Made by a program: the position numbers and the translations under genes
In this document: piece after piece, positions 2,501 through 38,520 of the stretch
Numbering within the stretch: the stretch's first letter is position 1
How the letters are laid out: every line of letters begins with the position of its first letter
IMG/VR virus record: IMGVR_UViG_3300046474_000346
Span: 1 to 41,865 of that record
Origin: a virus
DNA length: 41,865 nucleotides
Reading direction: 5' to 3' (one strand)
The notes under the pieces: model-generated
What the model was told of the DNA's origin: nothing
The model's database searches: none
What the model saw: only the letters and a program-made list of their open reading frames with translations

Positions 2501-2803
2501 CTACCGAGCCGGCTGAGGATGCCGGCGGTTCACCTCAAAGTCGAAGCGCGACTTGATCATGTCGTTGATCTGCCGTGTCGTGTCCACAAAACGCAGGCTT
2601 GCCTTGATTGTTTCAAATGGCAAGACATCGAGGAGATGAATCAACGCCGTATTGATGAACGAAGATGGGACGGTGTCTACACCGTCGAATGACAGTTCAA
2701 TGCGCTCACCCCGCTTAAGCCTTGGAAGCAGCACATCAAAAACCTTCTGACCGTCATCTTGTGAGTAACACTGACGAACAAGGTCGAGGGCACGGATTAC
2801 CAT
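2501..2803 (-). CDS. STAS-like DUF4325 protein
   Basis: 100-residue protein of the STAS-like DUF4325 type: a strand (ERIELSFDGVDTVPSSFINT) with the conserved FDG...SSF core, then helices (ALIHLLDVLPFETIKASL). STAS-type domains act as phosphorylatable or nucleotide-sensing switch proteins that pair with GHKL ATPases. Its start overlaps the stop of the upstream ATPase gene, so the two are co-translated. Composition is visibly more AT-rich than the late genes, suggesting recent acquisition. The target is unknown. Confidence 0.8.
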   Translation of the reverse strand: MVIRALDLVRQCYSQDDGQKVFDVLLPRLKRGERIELSFDGVDTVPSSFINTALIHLLDVLPFETIKASLRFVDTTRQINDMIKSRFDFEVNRRHPQPAR

Positions 2804-3708
2804 TCGAACTCCTCCTTCTCGCCTACTGGCTCCAGGGAACCAGTTTTAAAAGTAATCTGAATCAAGGTCCCAGGGTAGGTGACTCTCTCGTTACGCGAAG
2901 ACATCCTGACCCCGGATGCTGCGTGTATGCAATTAAAGCTACCTTTCAAGGACTGCACAAAGACTCTACCACGATTGTTCGCGACCACGTACCGCGTGAG
3001 GATATTAAGCCCTGCACCTTGGTTTCTTTTCGTGCTTTTTGTTGTGAAACCCTCAACGACCGCCTTCTCAAGGGCCTCTGCGTCACTCACCGCTGCCAGA
3101 ACCTTCCGGACGTTATACGGTATGCCGACGCCGAAGTCGGAAATCGTCAACATCACCTCACCCTTCTGAGGGTAGTGCTGAGTAAAAACACATCCAATCT
3201 TCTCGCCCGAGTGGTCGCTGATGTTGTTAAAAATTTCCTGCAGGCAAACATTGATGGATGCAAAGGATGCGGGCGAAAGCCCTACTCGTCCAGAGATCCA
3301 CTCCGCAAAAGTATTGTGTATCCATGGGTAACTGCGGTCGTACGACACCATTTCCAAGGGAAGCGTCGTCGATCGTAGCCTCGATCCCGAAAACGCGGGC
3401 TTTCCCACATACCTGAGGAAAAAACCAGAGTCGTCCAGGAACTTATTCCCCTCTGTTGGGTATGTGTAGTTTCTGAAGTAGACCTTGGTGTCATGCTTTT
3501 GCTTCAAGTACTCCACCAGGTTCGACAGGACCGTGATAGCCGTAGGGTCGGCAAAATTTAGCTTCGAGAAGTCGAAGACGACCTTATTCGCGCGTGGGTT
3601 CAGAGCATCGTCCAAGGCGCCTTCCAACAGAACATGTATGTTCTTAGCATTGAAGCTAAAAGGCAGTGGCACAGTGACAGTCGTGGGGTTCAAGATTTGG
3701 AAAATCAT
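2797..3708 (-). CDS. STAS-GHKL ATPase fusion protein
   Basis: 303 residues. Residues 10-105 form a STAS-like domain (VVFDFSKLNFADPTAITVLS). Residues 155-290 form a GHKL/HATPase domain: N box LQEIFNNISDHS, G1 box ISDFGVGIP, G2 box NQGAGLNIL. There is no dimerisation/phosphoacceptor domain, so it is not a sensor kinase; the fold is closer to RsbW/SpoIIAB-type anti-sigma kinases. A GAGG ribosome site precedes the ATG at 3708. With the downstream DUF4325 gene it could form a partner switch. Position next to attP marks it as a moron cargo gene; defence or host-control functions are inference. Confidence 0.8.
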   Translation of the reverse strand: MIFQILNPTTVTVPLPFSFNAKNIHVLLEGALDDALNPRANKVVFDFSKLNFADPTAITVLSNLVEYLKQKHDTKVYFRNYTYPTEGNKFLDDSGFFLRYVGKPAFSGSRLRSTTLPLEMVSYDRSYPWIHNTFAEWISGRVGLSPASFASINVCLQEIFNNISDHSGEKIGCVFTQHYPQKGEVMLTISDFGVGIPYNVRKVLAAVSDAEALEKAVVEGFTTKSTKRNQGAGLNILTRYVVANNRGRVFVQSLKGSFNCIHAASGVRMSSRNERVTYPGTLIQITFKTGSLEPVGEKEEFEW

Positions 3709-18456: not shown

Positions 18457-20523
18457 TTACGCGCCGGGCGCCTTGTACAGGCCGCGGTAGTCGATCGCTT
18501 TGGTAGCGAAATCGAGGCGGCACTTGTACGACAGACCGTCGACTTCGAAACCGACGTCGGTTTCGATGACCGGGCCCTCGGCACCATCCAGATAGCAGTA
18601 CTCGACGGTATCGACTTGGCCGTTGTTGCTTGCGAGGTACCAGGTAGTTGCGCTGTTGGCGTCGAGGACCGGTTCGACGATCGGTTCCAGCGACGTACGG
18701 CCGCCGGTGCGGAATTCGTTCACGTCGGCCTGCTTTGCGGGCACATAGTTCGAACTGGTCAGCTGGTACGCGGTCTGCTCCAGTGCCGCCGGCACGATCA
18801 GGTACGACGGCGCCAGATTCAGCTCTTCGCCTTGCATGCCCTTCTGAACGCGCATTGCTGCGCGTGCGGTGGTCAGCGCCGAGAACTGCAGCGCCGAGCC
18901 CGCGCCCGAGCCGAGGTTCTTGTGAGTGTTCGCTTCGAACAGTGCGACGCCATCTGCGAGGGCCGCGTTGGCGGTCAGCTGGCTGTACACCATGCGGTTT
19001 TCGAGGCGGGCTGCGCTGCCGCCGAAAGCACCGACGAGGCGGTCGAAGCCGCGCAGGTCATCGTTGATGATGGACTGGCGCGACAGCGAGACGATGCGGC
19101 CGAACGTCAGAACCTTATAGCTCTCGGCACCATCGGACATGGAGCCATATTTGAACTCGCCGTGCTCGTTGGTCTGCAGCAGATCCGGTGCGCCCGACAG
19201 CTGCACGACGTTGATGCTCTTGAAGTCCGGTGCGTTCGGAGCGCGGCGGGCCCACATCTGGTACGTGCCCGGGTTTTCTTCGTACGCATTGCGCAGGCGC
19301 TTGTTCGCGACGTTGGCGAACAGGCTGGCGAAGTCGCTGGTCGTCATCATGCCGCCCGAGCGGAACGTCAGCATGCTGGTTGCCAGCGTCATGCGGTCCA
19401 TGCCGCGCGTTCTGACACCGCACGATTCCAGCAGATCGCGGCCGACCTCGATCAGCGACATGCCGCGGTACTGGCGGCCGTTGTCGGTCAGTTCCGCACG
19501 CGAGTTCACGCGGTGCATGATGGCTTCGGCAATGCCATCCAGGCGGGTCTGGTGTTCGTCGCTGACGGTCTCGATACGCACGTTGCGATTGCCGCCGCTG
19601 TTGGCATCCAAGCGAGCGCGCTCTTCGAGGATTGCGGTGCGCGCCTGGTCCATCGTGCTGTTGGCGCGGATCAGGTTGGCGGCCAGGTTGCTGACGTTGT
19701 GGCGAGCGCAAAGCTCGGTAATGTCGGCAGCGCGCGTAGCAGCTTCCTGGGCAGCTTGAGCGGCAGCTTCGTTGGCCGCCGGGGCCGGTGCTACCGGAGC
19801 CGGATTGGTACGAGTAACGTCATTGGGCGCGGCGTTCGGTGCGCCCGTCGTGGTTGCAGTGGTCATAGGTTCTTCCGATGAAGGTTGAGACGATTGGGCG
19901 GGCGCCCGGGTGATGAATTCGCACGGATGGCCGTTTTGCGGTGCGCTGCGCGTGCTCGCGTCAGCGTCGGCCGGGACGGTCACGAAGCTGATTTCGTATG
20001 GCTGCCACGCTACGGCGCGGTACAGCGGGATCTTGCCGCCATCCGTACGTGCGTTCGGCGGGATGATCTCGTAGCGAATAACGCGATAGCCGAAGCTGAT
20101 CGAGCGGATGACGCCAGCCTTGATATCGGCCACGATACCGGCCATTTCGTCGCGCACCGACAAGCGAACGGTCGCCTTGCCCTCACCATTCTCGATGCTG
20201 CCGCGTAGGGCAACGCCGAGGATCGACGCGACGCCGCCATAAACGCGATGGTTGTCGATCACCTGCACGACCCCTGCGTCAAAGCGGCTCATGTCTACAG
20301 CGTCAGGCGTGACGACCAGCTCCTCGTCGTACTGCGTGTCGTTGTACCAGTCGTAGCGCAACACACTTGAGCCAGTGGTCCACACCAGGTCGACAGTGTT
20401 ATCGGCTTCGTTGAAAGTCGTCGGCACCAACGTAGCAGCGCGGTTCATCACCGGCATGCTCGGGGTACCGCGATTGACGATGGGCGCGCTCGGCGCAGAA
20501 GATGGCGTTGTCATGCTCATCAT
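18457..20523 (-). CDS. Prohead protease / major capsid protein fusion
   Basis: 688 residues. Residues about 30-205 form an HK97-type (U35) prohead protease with His92 (VIDNHRVYG) and the Ser motif RSISFGYRV near 143. Residues about 205-285 are an Ala/Pro-rich, scaffold-like linker and coiled coil. The rest is the major capsid protein (TFRSGGMMTTSDFASLFANV to LDFATKAIDYRGLYKAP). Fusion means protease, scaffold and shell are made one to one and must be separated by self-cleavage. No good ribosome site precedes the start; the 20537-20570 motif lies just upstream. Confidence 0.9.
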   Translation of the reverse strand: MMSMTTPSSAPSAPIVNRGTPSMPVMNRAATLVPTTFNEADNTVDLVWTTGSSVLRYDWYNDTQYDEELVVTPDAVDMSRFDAGVVQVIDNHRVYGGVASILGVALRGSIENGEGKATVRLSVRDEMAGIVADIKAGVIRSISFGYRVIRYEIIPPNARTDGGKIPLYRAVAWQPYEISFVTVPADADASTRSAPQNGHPCEFITRAPAQSSQPSSEEPMTTATTTGAPNAAPNDVTRTNPAPVAPAPAANEAAAQAAQEAATRAADITELCARHNVSNLAANLIRANSTMDQARTAILEERARLDANSGGNRNVRIETVSDEHQTRLDGIAEAIMHRVNSRAELTDNGRQYRGMSLIEVGRDLLESCGVRTRGMDRMTLATSMLTFRSGGMMTTSDFASLFANVANKRLRNAYEENPGTYQMWARRAPNAPDFKSINVVQLSGAPDLLQTNEHGEFKYGSMSDGAESYKVLTFGRIVSLSRQSIINDDLRGFDRLVGAFGGSAARLENRMVYSQLTANAALADGVALFEANTHKNLGSGAGSALQFSALTTARAAMRVQKGMQGEELNLAPSYLIVPAALEQTAYQLTSSNYVPAKQADVNEFRTGGRTSLEPIVEPVLDANSATTWYLASNNGQVDTVEYCYLDGAEGPVIETDVGFEVDGLSYKCRLDFATKAIDYRGLYKAPGA

Positions 20524-20536
20524 TCTGCTGATTGCT

Positions 20537-20570
20537 TTGTCTCAATTCTCGGAAAACTGAGACAATTTTC
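20537..20570 (-). promoter_or_regulatory. Conserved dyad motif, copy A, upstream of capsid gene
   Basis: TTGTCTCA (20537-20544) and TGAGACAA (20558-20565) are perfect inverted 8-bp arms around a 13-nt centre containing TCTCGGAAAAC. The 31-nt block matches copy B (25942 onward) at all but two positions, including the non-palindromic centre. It ends 13 bp before the capsid start codon. Candidate operator or mRNA leader hairpin. Confidence 0.7.
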
Positions 20571-20577
20571 AATGCGG

Positions 20578-20766
20578 CTATCGTTTGCTGTCGACGACGT
20601 AGTACCGACCGTTGTCGAGTGCTAGATGTGGCTTCGAATGAATCTGCGCCCGGGCCTCATGTAAGGCTGCATTGGGTGGACTCTCAGCGGCATTCGCGGC
20701 TACTTCGACAGACTTTGTTTTTGCTGCCTGCTCGCGCACCGCAGGAAGGTCGGCGACGTTATACAT
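20578..20766 (-). CDS. Small protein, 62 aa
   Basis: MYNVADLPAVREQAAKTKSV at the N-terminus and a basic end (HLALDNGRYYVVDSKR). Unrecognised. It starts in the stop of the previous gene (TGATG-type overlap) and is the last gene of the accessory cluster between portal and capsid. Virion role inferred from position only. Confidence 0.6.
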   Translation of the reverse strand: MYNVADLPAVREQAAKTKSVEVAANAAESPPNAALHEARAQIHSKPHLALDNGRYYVVDSKR

Positions 20767-21095
20767 CAGGGGTCCACCTCATTGAACCAAGTCGTTTTGT
20801 CGAAGCGCTCGCCGTTGTCGCAGGTAACGCGCGCTACCCACTTCCACCCTTCAGGCGGTTCCGAATCGGTACCGCCGAGGAACGCAATCACGTACGTTCG
20901 CTCCACGCCGTCAACGGTTACTACCTGCAGCTCCGGCAGATCCAGTTGAACCACGCCTACCAACACGAGCTCAACCGAAGCAGCAGTCGTGGCTCGGTCC
21001 GCCAGTTCCTCGGTAACGTCGGCCGCATAGTGGCTTTTCTCGTCTGGATCGCGGTTGACCATCCACTTATCTCCAACCTTAATCGGTGCGTTCAT
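20766..21095 (-). CDS. Accessory cluster protein, 109 aa
   Basis: MNAPIKVGDKWMVNRDPDEK, then a beta-rich body with VQLDLPELQVVTVDGVERTY and a C-terminal EPPEGWKWVARVTCDNGERF. It looks like a small single-domain beta protein. Unrecognised; translated with the LamG-like protein upstream and the 62-aa protein downstream. Confidence 0.65.
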   Translation of the reverse strand: MNAPIKVGDKWMVNRDPDEKSHYAADVTEELADRATTAASVELVLVGVVQLDLPELQVVTVDGVERTYVIAFLGGTDSEPPEGWKWVARVTCDNGERFDKTTWFNEVDP

Positions 21096-21097
21096 AC

Positions 21098-22636
21098 TTA
21101 TTCAAACCTCACTTTCCTGCTTCCACTGCCCTCGAAGACGACAACTCGACTACCGCTGCCCTCGAATGGAACGACACGACTGCCGCTGCCTTCGAACGGT
21201 ACGATCCGGCTGCCGCTGCCCTCAAAGACAACGATTCGCGCCGGCGAAATTTTTGATAGATCGAAGTCTCCCTGCTGTGCCACCGTCAGCACGGCATTGC
21301 CGCTCGCTTTTGACGTCACAGCCAGCGCGAGCTTGACTCCCGCGCTCATCGCCGCATGGGCCGATGTCCCTGCCTTGGCGACCGCGCCCAGCGCCACCTG
21401 AGTTGTCACAGCGGCCGCGGCGCTTGCCTTTATAATTGCCGCCGCCGCGAATTGACTCGTTGTCGTCAGGGCGGCACCAGCGCTGGTACTGCATGCCGAT
21501 TGCACCGCCCACGTACCTGCCGCCGACAGCGAAGCCGCTCCCGACACCGAGGCCGCGGCCGTTAGGGACATCGATACGGATGCCGTCAACCCGGCACTTC
21601 CAGAGCATCTGGCGACACCCGATGCGCTCAAGACCGCAGGCGTCGTCGACAGAGATGCCGATCCCACGGAAGCCATCGGGCCTGCCGCAGTGAGCGAAAC
21701 CACCGTCTGGATGCTCGCCGCGCCGCTCGCCGCCTGGACGCCTTGGGTCGACAGTGTCGTCCCGGTGCTCAAGGAACCACCGCCGCTGGTTCTGGCCACG
21801 CCTGACGGAACAAGCAGTGCGCCTGGCGTGGATCCCGAGGACGTGCTCGCCAGCAGCGCAGCCATTAGCGGCAAATTCGACGGTGCCTCAAATAGAATCC
21901 ATGGGTTCGCCGCGAAAGCCTGCAGTTCCGCGGCAGTAGGGTCCGACGACAGGATGGACAGCCCGGCCAGCACCGTATTGCACGACACCGTCCAACCAGT
22001 CTGTCCATTGATGAACGAGCCGACGATTAGTTTGAACGCCGCTACGTTGTTTGTGGATTGCGGCGCGCTATTGACCAGGACGCCGTTGCGATAGAACTCC
22101 AACAGGCCACTGACGTGCCGGACTATCATCAAGAAGACGGGCGCACCTGTAGTGCCTATGGTCAGGGTGTCGCCAGAGGACCAGATGCCCGATGACCATG
22201 TGTTATTGCCGCCGCCCCACATATTCGGGCCGTTCGGCGAATTCAGGATGCTTCTATTGCTGCCAAGATTGGTACAGATTCCCAACGAGTTGTTGGAAGA
22301 CCCCACTACAAAAGCAGCCTCGGAACTTGAAGCCTGTGAGCCCACTGCTTGCGGCCAGCCCAACCAGAACATCACGTAAGGGCTGGTGCCAACGGCAGGC
22401 AGCGTTTCCGTTTCGAGATAGAAATTCTTGCGGAAATTGAGGGTTTGGCATCCTCCGAGGGCCGCGAGACCGTAGCCTGTCCCTGAACGCGTGAGCTGCT
22501 TTCCTGTCGCCCAGTTGACATCCAGCGTTGGCGTAACAACCGCGACTGCGCCCGCGCCGATCCGCGTCGACCGGTCCAGCGGCACACCCTGCTGCGGCTG
22601 CTGACGCATTACCGACAACGGAAGCGGAGCACCCAT
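21098..22636 (-). CDS. LamG-like putative head-fibre protein with FEGSGSR repeats
   Basis: 512 residues. Residues about 50-235 look like a concanavalin/LamG jelly roll (FYLETETLPAVGTSPYVMFW, VFLMIVRHVSGLLEFYRNGV), usually a carbohydrate-binding fold. Residues about 265-455 are a low-complexity Ala/Ser/Thr-rich stalk. The C-terminus is five tandem 10-residue units of the type IVPFEGSGSR, ending KVRFE. Position between portal and capsid suggests a decoration exposed on the head; this is inference. Confidence 0.7.
   Translation of the reverse strand: MGAPLPLSVMRQQPQQGVPLDRSTRIGAGAVAVVTPTLDVNWATGKQLTRSGTGYGLAALGGCQTLNFRKNFYLETETLPAVGTSPYVMFWLGWPQAVGSQASSSEAAFVVGSSNNSLGICTNLGSNRSILNSPNGPNMWGGGNNTWSSGIWSSGDTLTIGTTGAPVFLMIVRHVSGLLEFYRNGVLVNSAPQSTNNVAAFKLIVGSFINGQTGWTVSCNTVLAGLSILSSDPTAAELQAFAANPWILFEAPSNLPLMAALLASTSSGSTPGALLVPSGVARTSGGGSLSTGTTLSTQGVQAASGAASIQTVVSLTAAGPMASVGSASLSTTPAVLSASGVARCSGSAGLTASVSMSLTAAASVSGAASLSAAGTWAVQSACSTSAGAALTTTSQFAAAAIIKASAAAAVTTQVALGAVAKAGTSAHAAMSAGVKLALAVTSKASGNAVLTVAQQGDFDLSKISPARIVVFEGSGSRIVPFEGSGSRVVPFEGSGSRVVVFEGSGSRKVRFE
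21113..21240 (-). repeat. 30-bp tandem repeat coding FEGSGSR units
   Basis: Four to five imperfect 30-bp direct repeats at the 3' end of the LamG-like gene encode FEGSGSR-RVVP/VV units. Synonymous differences between units show that the protein repeat is maintained, unlike the perfect 24-bp array at the window ends. Confidence 0.8.
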
Positions 22637-23098
22637 TTATACCGCCAGCAAATTAATTTCCGTGGTGCGGGCAGAGCATGACGTGATGGCCACGCCGCAA
22701 TCGTTTTTGATGAAAACGCGCCACTTTTGCGGCAGCCAGCCGCCAAACGCGGCTGCGATGCTCAACGGCTTCGGCGGCCGTACGGTTTCGGCATTCGCCC
22801 CGCCGTTCGTAGGGATCGACCCGAGTATGAGCATTGAGGTATCGTGCGTCGTGTCCGTCGATCCGGTCGGGCCTGGCGGGAACGAGTTGTCCATCGACCC
22901 TTGCACATACAGTATGATCTGTTTGTTGCCGGTGCTGTTGGCTGGTACGCTGGCCGAGTAGTCGAACAGTACGTCTGTCGGCTTATTGGCCGTGCTGTCA
23001 TAGACGGTGGCAGTAAGATCGTAGCTGCCGTTTGTGAGCGAGGACGCAACGGTATACGCTTGCGGGGTTCCTTGCCATCCGGTGTTTGTCGTCGTCAC
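22637..23098 (-). CDS. Accessory virion protein candidate, 153 aa
   Basis: Beta-rich protein starting MTTTNTGWQGTPQAYTVASS, with IILYVQGSMDNSFPPGPTGS and a C-terminal WRVFIKNDCGVAITSCSART. It resembles small tail or head decoration proteins in composition; no family is recognised. It abuts the LamG-like gene and overlaps the preceding one by 4 bp, so the three are co-translated. Confidence 0.65.
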   Translation of the reverse strand: MTTTNTGWQGTPQAYTVASSLTNGSYDLTATVYDSTANKPTDVLFDYSASVPANSTGNKQIILYVQGSMDNSFPPGPTGSTDTTHDTSMLILGSIPTNGGANAETVRPPKPLSIAAAFGGWLPQKWRVFIKNDCGVAITSCSARTTEINLLAV

Positions 23099-23556
23099 TG
23101 CGTTATCCCTGCTTCGATTAAGTCATAAATTAAAACGCGAGGAAGGCCCAAAATCTGTACGCGGCTGCCGGGTTGGATTGCCATTGCCAACAGCTGCGCC
23201 GCCTCGTCATTGCTCATTGCTCCCATCGTGACCATGTCGCCGATGCTCTTGACTGTCTCCGGGTCGTTCACGTTCAAACCCGTTGGACCGAGCAGTCGAT
23301 GCCAAGCGACCTCGACGACAGCGTCTTGAAGCGAGGCGGCTTTCAGTTTTCGGATGATCGATGGGCCGAGATCGCCGCACTCGGACAGAATCGTCAAGCC
23401 GTTGACCCAACGCTCCTGCGCGAAACGCTCGGTCGGTGCATTGAGCAGATCGACGACGACGCCGGACGCCGACGGCAGATACTTGGCGTACCCCTTCCCG
23501 GCAGGGTCGAGGTCGACTTCGTCGCGGAGCGCCTGCAACTGTGCCGGGCTCAGCAT
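23095..23556 (-). CDS. Conserved phage protein, 153 aa, helical
   Basis: MLSPAQLQALRDEVDLDPAG, then KGYAKYLPSASGVVVDLLNA, and helices through EAAQLLAMAIQPGSRVQILG. The N-terminal motif (AL..EV..DP.G.GYA..l) occurs in small phage structural-module proteins of unknown role. Predicted soluble. Confidence 0.65.
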   Translation of the reverse strand: MLSPAQLQALRDEVDLDPAGKGYAKYLPSASGVVVDLLNAPTERFAQERWVNGLTILSECGDLGPSIIRKLKAASLQDAVVEVAWHRLLGPTGLNVNDPETVKSIGDMVTMGAMSNDEAAQLLAMAIQPGSRVQILGLPRVLIYDLIEAGITQ

Positions 23557-23558
23557 GA

Positions 23559-24206
23559 TTAGCTGCCAAGCTGAGACGTCAGCGCACCGACTGCGATGCT
23601 TGGCGCCGAGTCACCGCTGTTGACGTTCTTTCCCGCGGCGAGCATGCCCCACCACCATGGGTTACCGCCAGTCGCAGCGTCGAATGCGACAACACCAACA
23701 ATCAGACCACCGGTCGGGTGCCACTGACCCGCCGGTGAGCCGAACGTAATCGCACCGTTGTTCGACGTCGTGCCGTTCGTGCCCGTCGACGCGACAGTCG
23801 TACCAGCGCCCTGCGTGCCCGCGAAGTTCGCAAGCGAGGACGCGACGCCAATACGAGCGTAGCCGGTCCCCGATGTGGAAACTTCAGTGTACGTGCCTGA
23901 GTCCAGGGCCGCGCTCTGCTCGGTGAACACGGCGGTGCCATCGGTGATCGCTTCCGCGACCGCGCCGGCGTAGCCGCCAGGCTGCGCCGCTGCGGTTGAA
24001 CCTGCCGTGGTGCACTTGTACAGCTGGTACTTGCCGCCGATCTGCACCGTGATCGTGTCATTCAGCGCGTACGCGGTCGAATTGGCGCGCACGCCTTTGC
24101 TTGCGCATATCAGGCCGAAGTAGTACGTCGCCGGAGCGCCGAGCGCCTGGCCGCGCCACAGGGCATCGGTGATCTTGTTCTGTGCATAGTCGGTAAGTCC
24201 GGACAT
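23559..24206 (-). CDS. Fibre-like virion protein, 215 aa
   Basis: MSGLTDYAQNKITDALWRGQ followed by ALGAPATYYFGLICASKG; the central part carries YTEVSTSGTGYARIGVASSL, then TSNNGAITFGSPAGQWHPTG and the end SIAVGALTSQLGS. This head-to-tail pattern is common in proteins annotated as phage tail fibre or capsid decoration. Residues about 45-100 look like an inserted beta domain (AYALNDTITVQIGGKYQLYK). Virion-associated by pattern and position just after the portal. Confidence 0.7.
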   Translation of the reverse strand: MSGLTDYAQNKITDALWRGQALGAPATYYFGLICASKGVRANSTAYALNDTITVQIGGKYQLYKCTTAGSTAAAQPGGYAGAVAEAITDGTAVFTEQSAALDSGTYTEVSTSGTGYARIGVASSLANFAGTQGAGTTVASTGTNGTTSNNGAITFGSPAGQWHPTGGLIVGVVAFDAATGGNPWWWGMLAAGKNVNSGDSAPSIAVGALTSQLGS

Positions 24207-24230
24207 AATGAGAGCCTCGCTGTTGTTTCG

Positions 24231-25706
24231 TTAGGTGGTTGTATCCGTGCCCGCGGTCGCAGGTGGAGTTGGCATATTCCCGCGCTGCATGAAGAGCAAA
24301 ATATCCAGGATGCCGAGTTCCTTGAATTTATTGAGGTCGCGCGCCAGCTCGGCGTAGACCGTGTCGGGGTCGTAACCACGCTGACGAAGCTTTTCGCTTG
24401 GCGTCGACAGCCCCGCCGCGATCTCGGCGGTGTCAGCCTTTACCTCTTGTTCGGGATTCACGTAGTCCCACTTTGGCATACTGAAGTCCACCGCCTTGTC
24501 GGCCCCACGGATCTTCCCGGCCAGACTGGCCGCATCAATGAACGCTTCGTGGATTCGGCGCAGCAACATTGGCACCAGGACAAGCCATTGAACCTGCTGC
24601 ACGGCGCGCCGGTAGGCCAAAAGGCGGACGCGTGCGCTGGAGAAGTTGACCTCGGACATGTCACCGGTGATCGCCTCATACGGCACGCCAATCGCGGCAG
24701 AGATGATGTGCAGCTGCAGCTTGATGTAATCCACGTATCCAGGAGCGGCCTTCGGCTCAACAACCGTAAAATTCAGGCCGGCCGGCATGCCAAAAATATT
24801 GCCGCCACCGAGCTCGCCCAAGTCCTGGACGCCGGCGCTCGGCCCGCCTGGCATGCCAGACGCAGCTGGATGCTCCAACTGAGTTGTATCTCCGCTGGCC
24901 AGTACGGACAGTCGAGCCTCGAGATTCTTGCGCCCGATTTCCGCATCCTCGTAGGTCTGCGTATCACGGGTGCGTGCGATGACCGGCGCGAACCGCGTGA
25001 ATCCGCGCCCCTGCCCCGGTCGCTTAGGATTGAACAGGTGGATGATATTCTGCGCCTGCACGCGCGAGCTCTGTATTTTGCGACCGCGAACCAGTGCCAT
25101 GTCACCAGGATGCTGATCCCATAGCCAGTAGGCTGCGACCTTGCCCAACTGGTCGTATTCGATGCCTTGGATGATCGTATTGCCGTTGTAGGTCCCCATC
25201 CTCGTGTCATCGAGCCAGTCGATTTCAAGCACTTGTAGCTGCAGCGGTACTGGCAACTCATCGCTCGGCCGTCGCGGGCGCAAGCGCACGAGCACCTCAC
25301 CATCCTGCTCCATCGCGGAATAGGCGACTTTGATCAAGCCGTAGTAATCCAGACGGTTGTCGGCATCGGCGACCTTTGCCCATTCGACGAACAGGGCATC
25401 GATCTTGACGGCCTCCGCCCCGGTAGCTCGTACCACAATGCCGGTGCCAATCGTGTCGGTTGCCAGGGTATCGAGGGCAGCAGCAATGTATGGAACGTTC
25501 TGCACGAGTGCGCGTGCTTTTGCGCGCAGCATTTTGGCGTCAGCTTGATGGTCGGCGTTCGCGCTGGCACCGGCGCGGCGCGGCCGCCAGCCGTCGCGTG
25601 GGCTGGCAGCCTCGTAAGCGCGTTGGAGGTTTTGCCGTGCACGATGGCGGGCCAACCCAGCTTGCGGGTTGAACCATCCGATCACGCGATCAATCGGATT
25701 TGCCAT
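24231..25706 (-). CDS. Portal protein (lambda gpB-like)
   Basis: 491 residues. It has the lambda-type portal pattern: MANPIDRVIGWFNPQAGLAR, ARALVQNVPYIAAALDTLAT, DTIGTGIVV, the wing segment YLRPRRPSDELP-like region (LRPRRPSDELPVPLQLQVLE) and AAPGYVDYIKLQLHIISAAI, then GVPYEAITGDMSEVNFSSAR. It forms the dodecameric gate for DNA entry and exit. The ATG at 25706 overlaps the gpW stop. Confidence 0.93.
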   Translation of the reverse strand: MANPIDRVIGWFNPQAGLARHRARQNLQRAYEAASPRDGWRPRRAGASANADHQADAKMLRAKARALVQNVPYIAAALDTLATDTIGTGIVVRATGAEAVKIDALFVEWAKVADADNRLDYYGLIKVAYSAMEQDGEVLVRLRPRRPSDELPVPLQLQVLEIDWLDDTRMGTYNGNTIIQGIEYDQLGKVAAYWLWDQHPGDMALVRGRKIQSSRVQAQNIIHLFNPKRPGQGRGFTRFAPVIARTRDTQTYEDAEIGRKNLEARLSVLASGDTTQLEHPAASGMPGGPSAGVQDLGELGGGNIFGMPAGLNFTVVEPKAAPGYVDYIKLQLHIISAAIGVPYEAITGDMSEVNFSSARVRLLAYRRAVQQVQWLVLVPMLLRRIHEAFIDAASLAGKIRGADKAVDFSMPKWDYVNPEQEVKADTAEIAAGLSTPSEKLRQRGYDPDTVYAELARDLNKFKELGILDILLFMQRGNMPTPPATAGTDTTT

Positions 25707-25918
25707 CAGAAGCCCCGCGTCGTCGTGAAGCGAAAGCCAAACACTTGCGGCCCCCGATTGGTCGTGCCCTGGTTGAGTACACGTGCCACATGATTACGCG
25801 CGTCGATGAGCGATGCGGTAGTCTGGAAGCGCTGACGACGCCCATCGAATTCGACTTCGAGAGTGCCGGAAGCGATCGCCTTATCGAGGGCGTCGAGATC
25901 TGCTTGAGTGAGGGCCAT
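25706..25918 (-). CDS. gpW-like head-tail joining protein
   Basis: 70 residues, MALTQADLDALDKAIASGTL followed by EVEFDGRRQRFQTTASLI, the gpW family pattern and length. It completes DNA packaging by attaching below the portal. AAGG lies close before the ATG. Copy B of the dyad motif lies 23 bp upstream. Confidence 0.9.
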   Translation of the reverse strand: MALTQADLDALDKAIASGTLEVEFDGRRQRFQTTASLIDARNHVARVLNQGTTNRGPQVFGFRFTTTRGF

Positions 25919-25941
25919 GCCCTTAAGGGTATGAGCCTCGC

Positions 25942-25972
25942 TGTCTCAAGTCTCGGAAAACTGAGACTATTT
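25942..25972 (-). promoter_or_regulatory. Conserved dyad motif, copy B, upstream of gpW
   Basis: TGTCTCA (25942-25948) and TGAGAC (25962-25967) flank the same centre TCTCGGAAAAC found in copy A. Two positions differ over 31 nt. It overlaps the stop of the Mor-like activator gene and precedes gpW/portal, as copy A precedes the capsid gene. Confidence 0.7.
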
Positions 25973-26263
25973 TTTGCTGCCGTCTTGCTTGATGATTCGG
26001 TACACGGTCGCGCGGCCGATGCCGAGGCGGCGCGCAATTTCGCTAGCGTTCCGACCGTTGAAAAGCCGTAGCACGTCGCGCGTCAGCTGGTCACGCGCGG
26101 CGTGCGAGCGACGCGGGATATAGATCTCGACCCCACTGAATTCACGGCGGACATCCTCTTTGAGCTGGGCCGTCCGCGGCGCGAGCTGGGGGAACTCGTC
26201 TTCGATGAAGGCAAAAATGGCATCGACCAGATCGGCGTTATCAAGGATGTCTTGACTCACCAT
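25967..26263 (-). CDS. Mor-family transcription activator
   Basis: 98 residues from the ATG at 26263 (MVSQDILDNADLVDAI). The C-terminal part is the Mor signature: GVEIYIPRRSHAARDQLTRD followed by the helix-turn-helix RNASEIARRLGIGRATVYRI. Mor/C proteins of Mu activate middle and late promoters through sigma-70. The start overlaps the terminase stop and has GGGAGG close upstream; an in-frame ATG at 26323 has no ribosome site. Finding a Mor protein inside a lambda-like head operon is unusual. Confidence 0.85.
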   Translation of the reverse strand: MVSQDILDNADLVDAIFAFIEDEFPQLAPRTAQLKEDVRREFSGVEIYIPRRSHAARDQLTRDVLRLFNGRNASEIARRLGIGRATVYRIIKQDGSKK

Positions 26264-34010: not shown

Positions 34011-34316
34011 TCACGGGCTTTCGCTTTCTCCGTGATTCGTCTCGGACTGGGGAGGAACTTGGTTCTTGCCACAGATGGCGTCGTCGCATATGTCCGGCGA
34101 GGGAACATTCACCTCTCGAGACGGATCCGTGGGCACTCCATGCTTTTCCGCAAGCGCATGCAGGCCACTGATCACCTTGTGCGAAGGGCGAGTCACCCCT
34201 GCTTTGCCAGCGATCATTGCGCTAACCGTGGGCTGCTTCAAGCCAAGCTCTTCGGCGATCTTGGTCTGCGTTAGCCCTACCCGTTGAAGCTCAGAGAGAG
34301 TGAAAATAATGTCCAT
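34011..34316 (-). CDS. Cro-like HTH regulator
   Basis: 101 residues from MDIIFTLSELQ. The HTH is RVGLTQTKIAEELGLKQPTV followed by SAMIAGK; the C-terminal tail is Pro/Ser-rich and disordered. It is transcribed divergently from the repressor, the Cro position. The ATG at 34316 is chosen because it lies 7 nt after the -10 box of the leftward promoter and no Shine-Dalgarno is present, so the mRNA is probably leaderless. An ATG at 34325 would lie inside the -10. Confidence 0.8.
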   Translation of the reverse strand: MDIIFTLSELQRVGLTQTKIAEELGLKQPTVSAMIAGKAGVTRPSHKVISGLHALAEKHGVPTDPSREVNVPSPDICDDAICGKNQVPPQSETNHGESESP

Positions 34317-34323
34317 GGAGAAC

Positions 34324-34352
34324 ATTATAGGAGTTCCGATTTTACACGTCAA
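34324..34352 (-). promoter_or_regulatory. Leftward early promoter
   Basis: On the minus strand: TTGACG (34347-34352), a 17-bp spacer, and TATAAT (34324-34329). It reads into cro, ymfL and the primase gene. Operator dyads touch both boxes (34352-34365 and 34327-34340), so a repressor dimer on either would block it. Confidence 0.85.
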
Positions 34353-34365
34353 TCGGAATTCCGAT
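34327..34365. promoter_or_regulatory. Repressor operator pair, left cluster
   Basis: ATCGGAATTCCGAT (34352-34365) is a perfect dyad. ATAGGAGTTCCGAT (34327-34340) is the same site with one mismatch. They are 25 bp apart, and the same consensus occurs at 36086 and 36111. A weaker ATAGGAATGTCTAT (34384-34397) overlaps the repressor start. Confidence 0.88.
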
Positions 34366-34377
34366 TTAGTGCCGACC

Positions 34378-34383
34378 GATAAT
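34378..34383 (+). promoter_or_regulatory. Possible -10 of the repressor promoter
   Basis: GATAAT lies 6 nt before the repressor ATG at 34390, with no good -35 upstream and no spaced Shine-Dalgarno. This suggests a weak, PRM-like promoter giving a leaderless repressor mRNA, overlapped by the left operators. Confidence 0.5.
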
Positions 34384-34389
34384 ATAGGA

Positions 34390-35106
34390 ATGTCTATAGG
34401 CACACGAATTAGAGAAGCCCGCCGAGCGGCGAAGCTGACGCAGAAGGCGCTCGCCCAAAAGGTGGGCATGGCTCAAGCATCCCTTTCAGAGTTAGAAACT
34501 GGTGAATCCGCAGGCACCACTTTGGTTGCATCACTTGCCGCTGCATTGGGCGTAAACCCGCTGTGGCTTGAGACTGGAAAGGGAAGTATGGTTCCTGTCC
34601 AAGCCCCGTCGCCCGACCCTGATGTAGACGAGGACAACCCATTTTTGTCCGCGACTGTCCCGATCCGCATTGGGGAAGAGCCTGACACCATCCCTATTCG
34701 GAGAGTAAAACTGAAATTGCGAGCTGGGGTCGCAGGCTATGAAACCGAGCCTGAAATGGAAGATGGCGGCGTGCTGCACATGCCCCGCCGAGTGATCGAA
34801 AGAAACAATTTTGCTCCTCACTTGTTGTTAGCCGTCACCGTCCGGGGATGCAGCATGGAGCCGCTGCTTTTCGAAGATGACGTTGTTGTTGTCAATACTG
34901 CAGACAAAAAGCCGGTCGACCGCGAGCTTTTTGCCGTCAACTTTAATGGCGAGGGCTGCATCAAACAACTTTGGAAGGATGGCGGGCAGTGGTTCTTGCG
35001 GTCTCTTCATCCCAAACACGGTCCTGTCAACGTGCGCAGCGGTCAATGCGACATCGTCGGGCGCGTCGTCTACCAACCAGGCCGTGAGCTAACTGGTCGC
35101 CTGTGA
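34390..35106 (+). CDS. CI-type repressor with S24 self-cleavage domain
   Basis: 238 residues. The N-terminal XRE HTH is MSIGTRIREARRAAKLTQKA then LAQKVGMAQASLSELETGES. The C-terminal LexA-like domain has the Ala-Gly cleavage site in RAGVAGYETE (about 115), catalytic Ser in VRGCSMEPLL (about 155) and Lys in GCIKQLW (about 192). It maintains lysogeny and should be inactivated by RecA-stimulated self-cleavage in SOS. An upstream ATG at 34300 is rejected because it would run through the operators and the divergent promoter. Confidence 0.93.
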   Translation: MSIGTRIREARRAAKLTQKALAQKVGMAQASLSELETGESAGTTLVASLAAALGVNPLWLETGKGSMVPVQAPSPDPDVDEDNPFLSATVPIRIGEEPDTIPIRRVKLKLRAGVAGYETEPEMEDGGVLHMPRRVIERNNFAPHLLLAVTVRGCSMEPLLFEDDVVVVNTADKKPVDRELFAVNFNGEGCIKQLWKDGGQWFLRSLHPKHGPVNVRSGQCDIVGRVVYQPGRELTGRL

Positions 35107-37396: not shown

Positions 37397-37585
37397 ATGG
37401 ACCGCGTCCTGCCAGACCGCGCAGCGCTGGAGATCGCGCACCGCTGGCTTCGGACGCCCTCCCCGCTCGACGAAATGCTGAAGAACCCGGCTCTCAAAAT
37501 CATTTTGGAAGCCATCGCCCGCCGGCACATGCAGCGCCGCAGCGGGTTCGATCCGAAGAAGCTGCAGGCCAACGACAAAGAGTGA
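37397..37585 (+). CDS. Small early protein, 62 aa
   Basis: MDRVLPDRAALEIAHRWLRT then LDEMLKNPALKIILEAIARR, a helical basic protein ending DPKKLQANDKE. It overlaps the ParB-like gene start as GTGA. Unrecognised. Confidence 0.65.
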   Translation: MDRVLPDRAALEIAHRWLRTPSPLDEMLKNPALKIILEAIARRHMQRRSGFDPKKLQANDKE

Positions 37586-38520
37586 ATGCGCTCGCGTCGT
37601 ACAACAACAAACAGACCATGTCCGAAAGTTTTGTCTCGCTGAAGGTCGCCGCCGAGAGGAAGATCCACGGCGACAGCGTCTCGAAAGTGACCTCGTTCGC
37701 GGTAGATCCGCGCCTGCTGGAGGTCGAGGAAGGCTTCAACGCGCGGCCGCTCAATATGGAGCACGTGGCCGAGATGTCCCTCGCGCTGCAGAACGGCGCG
37801 ATCTTCCCGCCGCTGGAGGTGCGCGTCGAGGAGGGGCACATCATCCTCGTCGACGGCCACCACCGTCACGCCGCGGCGCTCGACGCCATCTCGAAAGGCT
37901 TCGAGATCAAGTCGCTCGACTGCCGCCAGTTCCGTGGCGGCGATGCGGACCGCGTCGCCCACATGATCACCAGCGCAGGCGGCCTGCCGTTGACGCCGCT
38001 CCAGCTCGGCATCCAGCTGCGCAAGCTGCACGGCTTCGGCTGGACGGAAAAGCAGATCGCGACGCGCATCGGCAAATCCATCGAGCACGTGAAGAACACG
38101 ATCCTCCTGGCCGAGGCGAACAGCGACGTGCACAAGGCCGTGAACGCAGGCGAGGTATCGAGCACGACGGCCGCCGCACTGGTGAAGAAGCACGGCAGCA
38201 AGGCCGGCAAGGTCATCCAGGACGGCGTGGCGAAGGCCAAGGCCAGCGGCAAGACGAAGGCGACGCCGAAGATGTTCGCCGAGGCAGCGGCGGAACCGAA
38301 CGGCCTCATGGTGACGCTCGAATGGATCCCAGCGGCAGCGCGCATGCCGGACGATGACATCACGGTCCTCATCGCACTGGAAGGCGGAGAGGTCGCCCCG
38401 GCCTACAGGCAAGACGGGGTCTGGGTGGACACGTCAGGCATGCCTCTGTTTAAGCACGTCGTCACCCACTGGATGCACGTTCCCGCAGCCCCAACCGTAC
38501 AGGTGGCCGCTGCTCAGTAA
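37582..38520 (+). CDS. ParB-like nuclease domain / DUF551 fusion
   Basis: 312 residues from the GTG at 37582 (an ATG at 37618 is an alternative). Residues about 45-110 hold the ParB/Srx box: RPLNMEHVAEMSLALQNGAI then VDGHHRHAAAL. Residues 130-180 form an HTH-like region (FGWTEKQIATRIGKSIEHVK). A Lys/Ala-rich linker leads to a C-terminal DUF551-like domain (WIPAAARMPDDDITVLIALE to VVTHWMHVP). Phage ParB-like proteins act in DNA partition, nicking or gene control; the exact role here is unknown. Confidence 0.85.
   Translation: MNALASYNNKQTMSESFVSLKVAAERKIHGDSVSKVTSFAVDPRLLEVEEGFNARPLNMEHVAEMSLALQNGAIFPPLEVRVEEGHIILVDGHHRHAAALDAISKGFEIKSLDCRQFRGGDADRVAHMITSAGGLPLTPLQLGIQLRKLHGFGWTEKQIATRIGKSIEHVKNTILLAEANSDVHKAVNAGEVSSTTAAALVKKHGSKAGKVIQDGVAKAKASGKTKATPKMFAEAAAEPNGLMVTLEWIPAAARMPDDDITVLIALEGGEVAPAYRQDGVWVDTSGMPLFKHVVTHWMHVPAAPTVQVAAAQ

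Follow-up and report, generated by a model that had tools for sequence, protein, structure and literature searches.

Two near-identical sequences in a 41,865-nt stretch of viral DNA (hereafter the window) stand ahead of the capsid gene and of the gpW and portal genes, the second at the end of a gene for a small Mor-like protein. What do these sequences do, and does the neighboring protein act on them? We put a probability of roughly 0.86 on the reading that they are Mor-type activator-dependent late promoters, with the Mor-like protein as the late-gene activator of an integrase-type temperate phage. The evidence for this reading comes from comparative sequence analysis.

Two copies of a dyad in the window

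Self-comparison of the window showed stretches 20538-20568 and 25942-25972 to be identical but for 2 of 31 positions, in agreement with a preliminary description of this DNA that had reported a 31-nt motif in two copies with two mismatches. No further close copy was found in the window, where the remaining matches have at least 10 differences and the nearest is a self-overlap. The core TCTCGGAAAAC occurs exactly twice in the window, and allowing up to one mismatch gives 4 hits against 0.8 expected. The structural genes are on the minus strand, and in their sense the motif reads GTCTCAGTTTTCCGAGA[C/A]TTGAGAC. It consists of 6-bp arms, GTCTCA and TGAGAC, around a 13-bp asymmetric center (GTCTCA-N13-TGAGAC; Table 1). 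Copy B begins at the last base of the stop codon of the Mor-like gene (25967), at the end of that gene as originally described, and ends 24 bp 5' of the gpW ATG (25918). Copy A ends 24 bp 5' of an ATG at 20514. Distances of 13 to 25 bp to the first start codon had been given; the 13 bp for copy A were counted from what appears to be the wrong start.

Table 1. Predicted promoter elements and associated genes in the window.
Feature	Positions	Strand	Remarks
Head protease/major capsid fusion gene, predicted target operon A	18457..20514	-	phrog_4523, major head and protease protein; PF25209 Phage_capsid_4
Capsid/protease-fusion start codon ATG	20512..20514	-	Conserved; predicted mRNA 5' end
Predicted -10 hexamer CAGAAT, site A	20522..20527	-	In 29/29 nonredundant capsid sites, nt 13 is A and nt 17 is T
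Site A dyad GTCTCA-GTTTTCCGAGAAT-TGAGAC	20539..20563	-	Predicted Mor-like binding site before capsid gene
A-tract GAAAATT	20564..20570	-	Upstream of site A
gpW-like adaptor and lambda-family portal genes, predicted target operon B	24231..25918	-	phrog_2545, PF05136
gpW/head-tail adaptor start codon ATG	25916..25918	-	nt 25 after dyad; phrog_2545; predicted transcription start at or at most 1 nt away
Predicted -10 hexamer TACCCT, site B	25926..25931	-	nt 12-17 after dyad; register kept in the set of 37 nonredundant B sites
Site B dyad GTCTCA-GTTTTCCGAGACT-TGAGAC	25943..25967	-	Predicted site for the Mor-like protein, ahead of gpW/portal; arms and Mor-like helix vary together
Mor-like activator gene, 118 aa	25967..26323	-	HTH, recognition segment G103-R104-A105-T-V-Y-R
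A-tract AAAAAATA	25968..25975	-	Adjoins site B on its upstream side; may be contacted by alphaCTD; overlaps mor-like 3' end

Distribution among related phages

A viral contig search with the pattern GTCTCANTTTTCCNNGANTTGAGAC (21 specified bases) returned 85 IMG/VR stretches. Nearly all of the matches lie in one of two contexts, either between a Mor-like gene and gpW or ahead of the capsid gene, and a chance origin of the motif is excluded. The preliminary description had named occurrence at unrelated positions in relatives as evidence against its proposal; the same two contexts were instead found nearly throughout. The Mor-like gene was present in 19 of 20 motif-bearing records checked, the exception being a 22-kb fragment. 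Mor-like protein searches and family alignments yielded, after merging, 152 nonredundant loci (numbered with the prefix L). Nearly all of these have a 25-28 bp dyad downstream of mor, and a second before the capsid gene where the contig reaches that far. Dyad lengths of 25, 26, 27 and 28 bp were recorded in 101, 21, 11 and 2 loci, respectively; no dyad was found in L200. Scanning genome contigs with a 16-base core gave mostly scattered single matches, near the chance level, and only the Massilia matches had full dyad context. A contig of M. yuzhufengensis carries L120 and L132.

Among 50,697 cultured-phage records, the Mor-like protein matched only Mu-type Mor/C, and weakly, a clade-typical composite Mor-like sequence had zero matches, and no near relative of the head region was found. 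At the sensitivity used, this Mor-like subfamily is absent from these genomes.

Six loci (L012, L018, L025, L057, L224 and L402) carry about 0.45-1.2 kb of extra genes between mor and site B, and in four of them (L012, L025, L224 and L402) the dyad stays by the gpW ATG and not by the mor stop codon. That the dyad keeps to the gpW start despite inserted genes argues for a promoter of the genes that follow rather than a signal at the end of mor. In L008, L024, L051, L058, L074, L078, L404 and L405, holin-like genes are preceded by a third dyad that keeps the -10 register; these genes differ in sequence, and the holin assignment in L404 and L405 is by inspection only. A search of the window for a third site was negative.

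The Mor-like protein

The Mor-like gene lies between the large terminase gene (terL) and the gpW and portal genes. Its product matches the PF08765 Mor profile with 36.8 bits (cut-off 24.9) over residues 53-113 only, the N-terminal half matching poorly, and is assigned to phrog_532/836, late transcriptional activator. By sequence and fold together, its best solved relatives are Mu Mor (1rr7, 9l0y), followed by Mu C (9l0x, 9vw8). The family fold pairs an N-terminal dimerization domain with a C-terminal HTH. In a fold search with the predicted model (pLDDT 73), 1rr7 was the top PDB match (probability 0.98, E 0.02), with a TM-score of about 0.3 that denotes low overall similarity.

Anatomy of the proposed promoters

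The automatic site finder required GT...AC ends, an A as nt 13 and a T as nt 17 after the dyad; it missed ATCTCA sites and mis-called L023. Because it imposed these two bases, all -10 figures were taken from nonredundant sites picked by the dyad alone, with no -10 condition (29 capsid and 37 gpW, or B, sites). In this set, 29/29 capsid and 36/37 gpW sites have A at nt 13, and the same proportions have T at nt 17 (65/66 overall for each). Position 12 is T in 31 of 37 B sites and C in 21 of 29 A sites. By their sequence, nt 12-17 are a sigma70-type -10 box, in which nt 13 A and nt 17 T correspond to the key positions -11A and -7T. The spacing from downstream arm to box is unchanged in dyads of 26-28 bp. 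An inverted repeat centered on the -10 hexamer (e.g., CGCGCACGATGCGCG) is seen in some capsid sites (L007, L164, L186, L188 and others); as a universal element it had modest support at capsid sites (z 3.0) and was not significant at B sites (z 1.1) against a halves-shuffled control, and it plays no part in the mechanism proposed below.

No common -35 hexamer was found, most sites having only 2-3 of the 6 bases of TTGACA at a 16-18 bp spacer. The dyad itself covers the -35 region, with its center at about -36/-37, and 11 bp separate it from the -10 box. The sites have the arrangement expected of Mor/C-dependent promoters, namely a -10 hexamer, no -35 and a dyad in its place. Directly upstream, positions -6 to -3 are A-rich across sites. 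A is present at -5 in 66/66 capsid sites and in 92% of 99 B sites, and 89% of capsid sites have T at -2. The sites behind these counts, and behind the helix/arm code and some of the ATG counts below, had been chosen under the -10 condition; neither the position of the ATG nor the agreement of helix and arms should be influenced by this.

A protein bound over the -35 region, 11 bp from the -10 box, is also in a place where it can block polymerase, so the Mor-like protein might bind the dyads but mainly repress the underlying promoters, or repress them first and activate them later. We consider this improbable: with -10 boxes and no common -35, the bare promoters should be weak and need help, and the studied members of the family, Mor and C, are activators (PMC4287176). 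Activation rather than repression, and late timing, are what we infer for the Mor-like protein.

Co-variation of dyad arms and recognition helix

The arms vary among relatives, and the two sites of one genome vary in step. Among the columns of the Mor-like alignment, the one most tied to arm sequence is that of window residue A105 (z 11.6-16), followed by G103 (z 6.5-10.5 for classes including arm position 4), and all others are far weaker. Both residues are in the recognition helix and flank R104. The correspondence can be written as a code: [GS]R[AS] occurs with GTCTCA, HR[AST] with GTCGCA, GRT with GTyCCA, SRR with GTGxCA, SRV..W with GTTTCA and GRST with GTCCCA. Helix class gave the correct arm class of the capsid site in 101 of 102 genomes, a test in which capsid sites were chosen blind to site B as a guard against circularity. 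Two loci fit the code poorly, L370 (GRAT, with arms GTCCCA/TGAGAC) and L190 (ARPS).

Independence of the changes was assessed on a tree of the large terminase, since the short Mor protein gives a poorly resolved tree (2 pairs on supported branches). The terminase tree provided 16 independent pairs on supported branches, of which 14 had joint change and 0 the opposite (sign test, p = 0.00012). Part of the co-variation can be put down to mor being exchanged together with the site next to it as a cassette; the capsid site, about 1.8-6 kb from mor, obeys the same helix/arm code. The centers of 25-bp dyads have 1.9 differences within a genome versus 4.1 between genomes, so the two sites may evolve in concert, or the center may also be read.

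Arm/helix co-variation, gene co-occurrence and promoter anatomy all support the proposal, made in the preliminary description, that the motif is an operator for the Mor-like protein, and they suggest that the HTH of this protein reads the DNA dyad. The case for this particular protein is built from co-variation and co-occurrence, and some other phage or host protein might bind the dyad with the Mor-like gene a mere neighbor. That is very unlikely, as the arm changes track recognition-helix residues specifically and repeatedly, and sites kilobases from mor track the helix equally well.

Start codons and predicted leaderless mRNA

The capsid ATG begins at nt 24-26 after the dyad in 51 of 52 nonredundant sites, or 7-9 nt past the -10 box; in the window, the ATGs at 20514 (capsid) and 25918 (gpW) are both at nt 25. 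Because of this short distance to the -10 box, the capsid mRNA is predicted to be leaderless, and its 5' end should fall on the ATG or no more than 1-2 nt from it. Such an mRNA would explain the earlier remark that the capsid gene has no good ribosome site. At gpW sites, the ATG is at nt 24-27 in 49 of 83; the leaders at the others are longer, and some of them contain a Shine-Dalgarno-like stretch. Two in-frame upstream capsid ATGs, at 20523 and 20520, lie within or at the edge of the predicted -10 box, and relatives do not share them. The true capsid start should be 20514, not 20523. Automatic gene calling would place the start at 20523 or 20520.

The preliminary description had offered a second option, an RNA hairpin in the leader that tunes head-gene translation, and an inverted repeat near start codons that have no Shine-Dalgarno sequence is what such a hairpin would look like. 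We regard it as more doubtful still than a different binding protein. The predicted transcription start falls past the dyad, at a set distance from it; both sites of a genome have the same arms and similar centers; and the arms track HTH residues, which pairing alone does not predict. Footprints of recombination, packaging or a mobile element, suggested by a likeness of the Mor-like HTH to that of serine resolvases and invertases (PF02796), are scarcely credible, given an ORF of only 118 aa with no match to the resolvase catalytic domain, and dyads with fixed spacing to the -10 box and ATG and not to gene ends.

Proposed mechanism and significance

Under the preferred reading of activator-dependent late promoters, the Mor-like protein, as a dimer or higher oligomer, would bind the 25-bp dyad, its HTH probably reading the 6-bp arms. 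From the -35 region it would recruit host sigma70 RNA polymerase to the -10 box 11 bp further on. One promoter would serve gpW and portal, one the protease-capsid operon and, in some relatives, a third the lysis cassette. Transcription from the capsid promoter would start at or at most 1-2 nt from the ATG and yield a leaderless mRNA.

No earlier description of such promoters was found in the literature, of which subscription journals were covered in part. We think it likely that these phages represent an undescribed class of late control, in which integrase-type temperate phages use Mor-type activators with their own promoter geometry, an often-switched two-residue DNA code and leaderless capsid-operon mRNAs throughout the group. 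A large group of uncultivated phages would thereby gain a concrete late-gene switch, and the Mor/C mechanism would extend beyond Mu-like phages. The group also provides numerous activator/promoter pairs matched by nature, with a specificity that apparently depends on two residues, a test bed for DNA recognition and orthogonal regulators. The prediction that the major capsid protein, which is highly expressed, is made from leaderless mRNA across the clade makes the efficiency with which such mRNAs are used directly testable.

Comparison with known systems

The window encodes a tyrosine integrase (1435-2472) and an S24/CI-type repressor (34300-35106). By its gene content, the phage is not Mu-like in lifestyle (integrase and repressor were found; the transposase check covered some of the ORFs). 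Two other ORFs were noted: one of 303 aa (2797-3708, minus strand) contains an ATPase domain of the histidine-kinase/gyrase type (PF02518), which temperate phages do not usually carry, and one (37582-38520, plus strand) joins a ParB/KorB-type HTH to a DUF551 domain.

Among phage activators, P2 Ogr/Delta follow a shared plan, being small proteins that activate several late operons via a dyad, but they are unrelated zinc-finger proteins with a binding site further upstream (about -55).

At the Mu promoter Pm, Mor binds as a dimer to the two 5-bp repeats of a 16-bp element that is centered at -43.5 and takes the place of a -35 element, and alphaCTD contacts an A/T-rich patch upstream (PMC4390567, PMC4287176). 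The present sites share with Mor and Pm a small HTH activator of the same family, a dyad that replaces the -35, a -10 box and an upstream A/T-rich patch. They differ in dyad size and position: 25-28 bp with 6-bp arms, a 13-16-bp spacer and a center at about -36/-37, compared to 16 bp with 5-bp arms, a 6-bp spacer and a center at -43.5 in Pm. For this reason, we call them a Mor-type variant and not copies of Pm. Mu C is a single family member that activates several late operons, including lysis, via repeated dyads (PMC4287176). With its promoters Plys, PI, PP and Pmom (9l0x, 9vw8), it likewise exemplifies one activator for several late operons, although its sequence similarity to the Mor-like protein is weaker than that of Mor. 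The Mor-then-C cascade of Mu is not seen here, where one activator would serve two or three sites. Also unlike Mu, the activator gene is between terL and gpW/portal, in a tyrosine-integrase phage with a predicted leaderless capsid mRNA.
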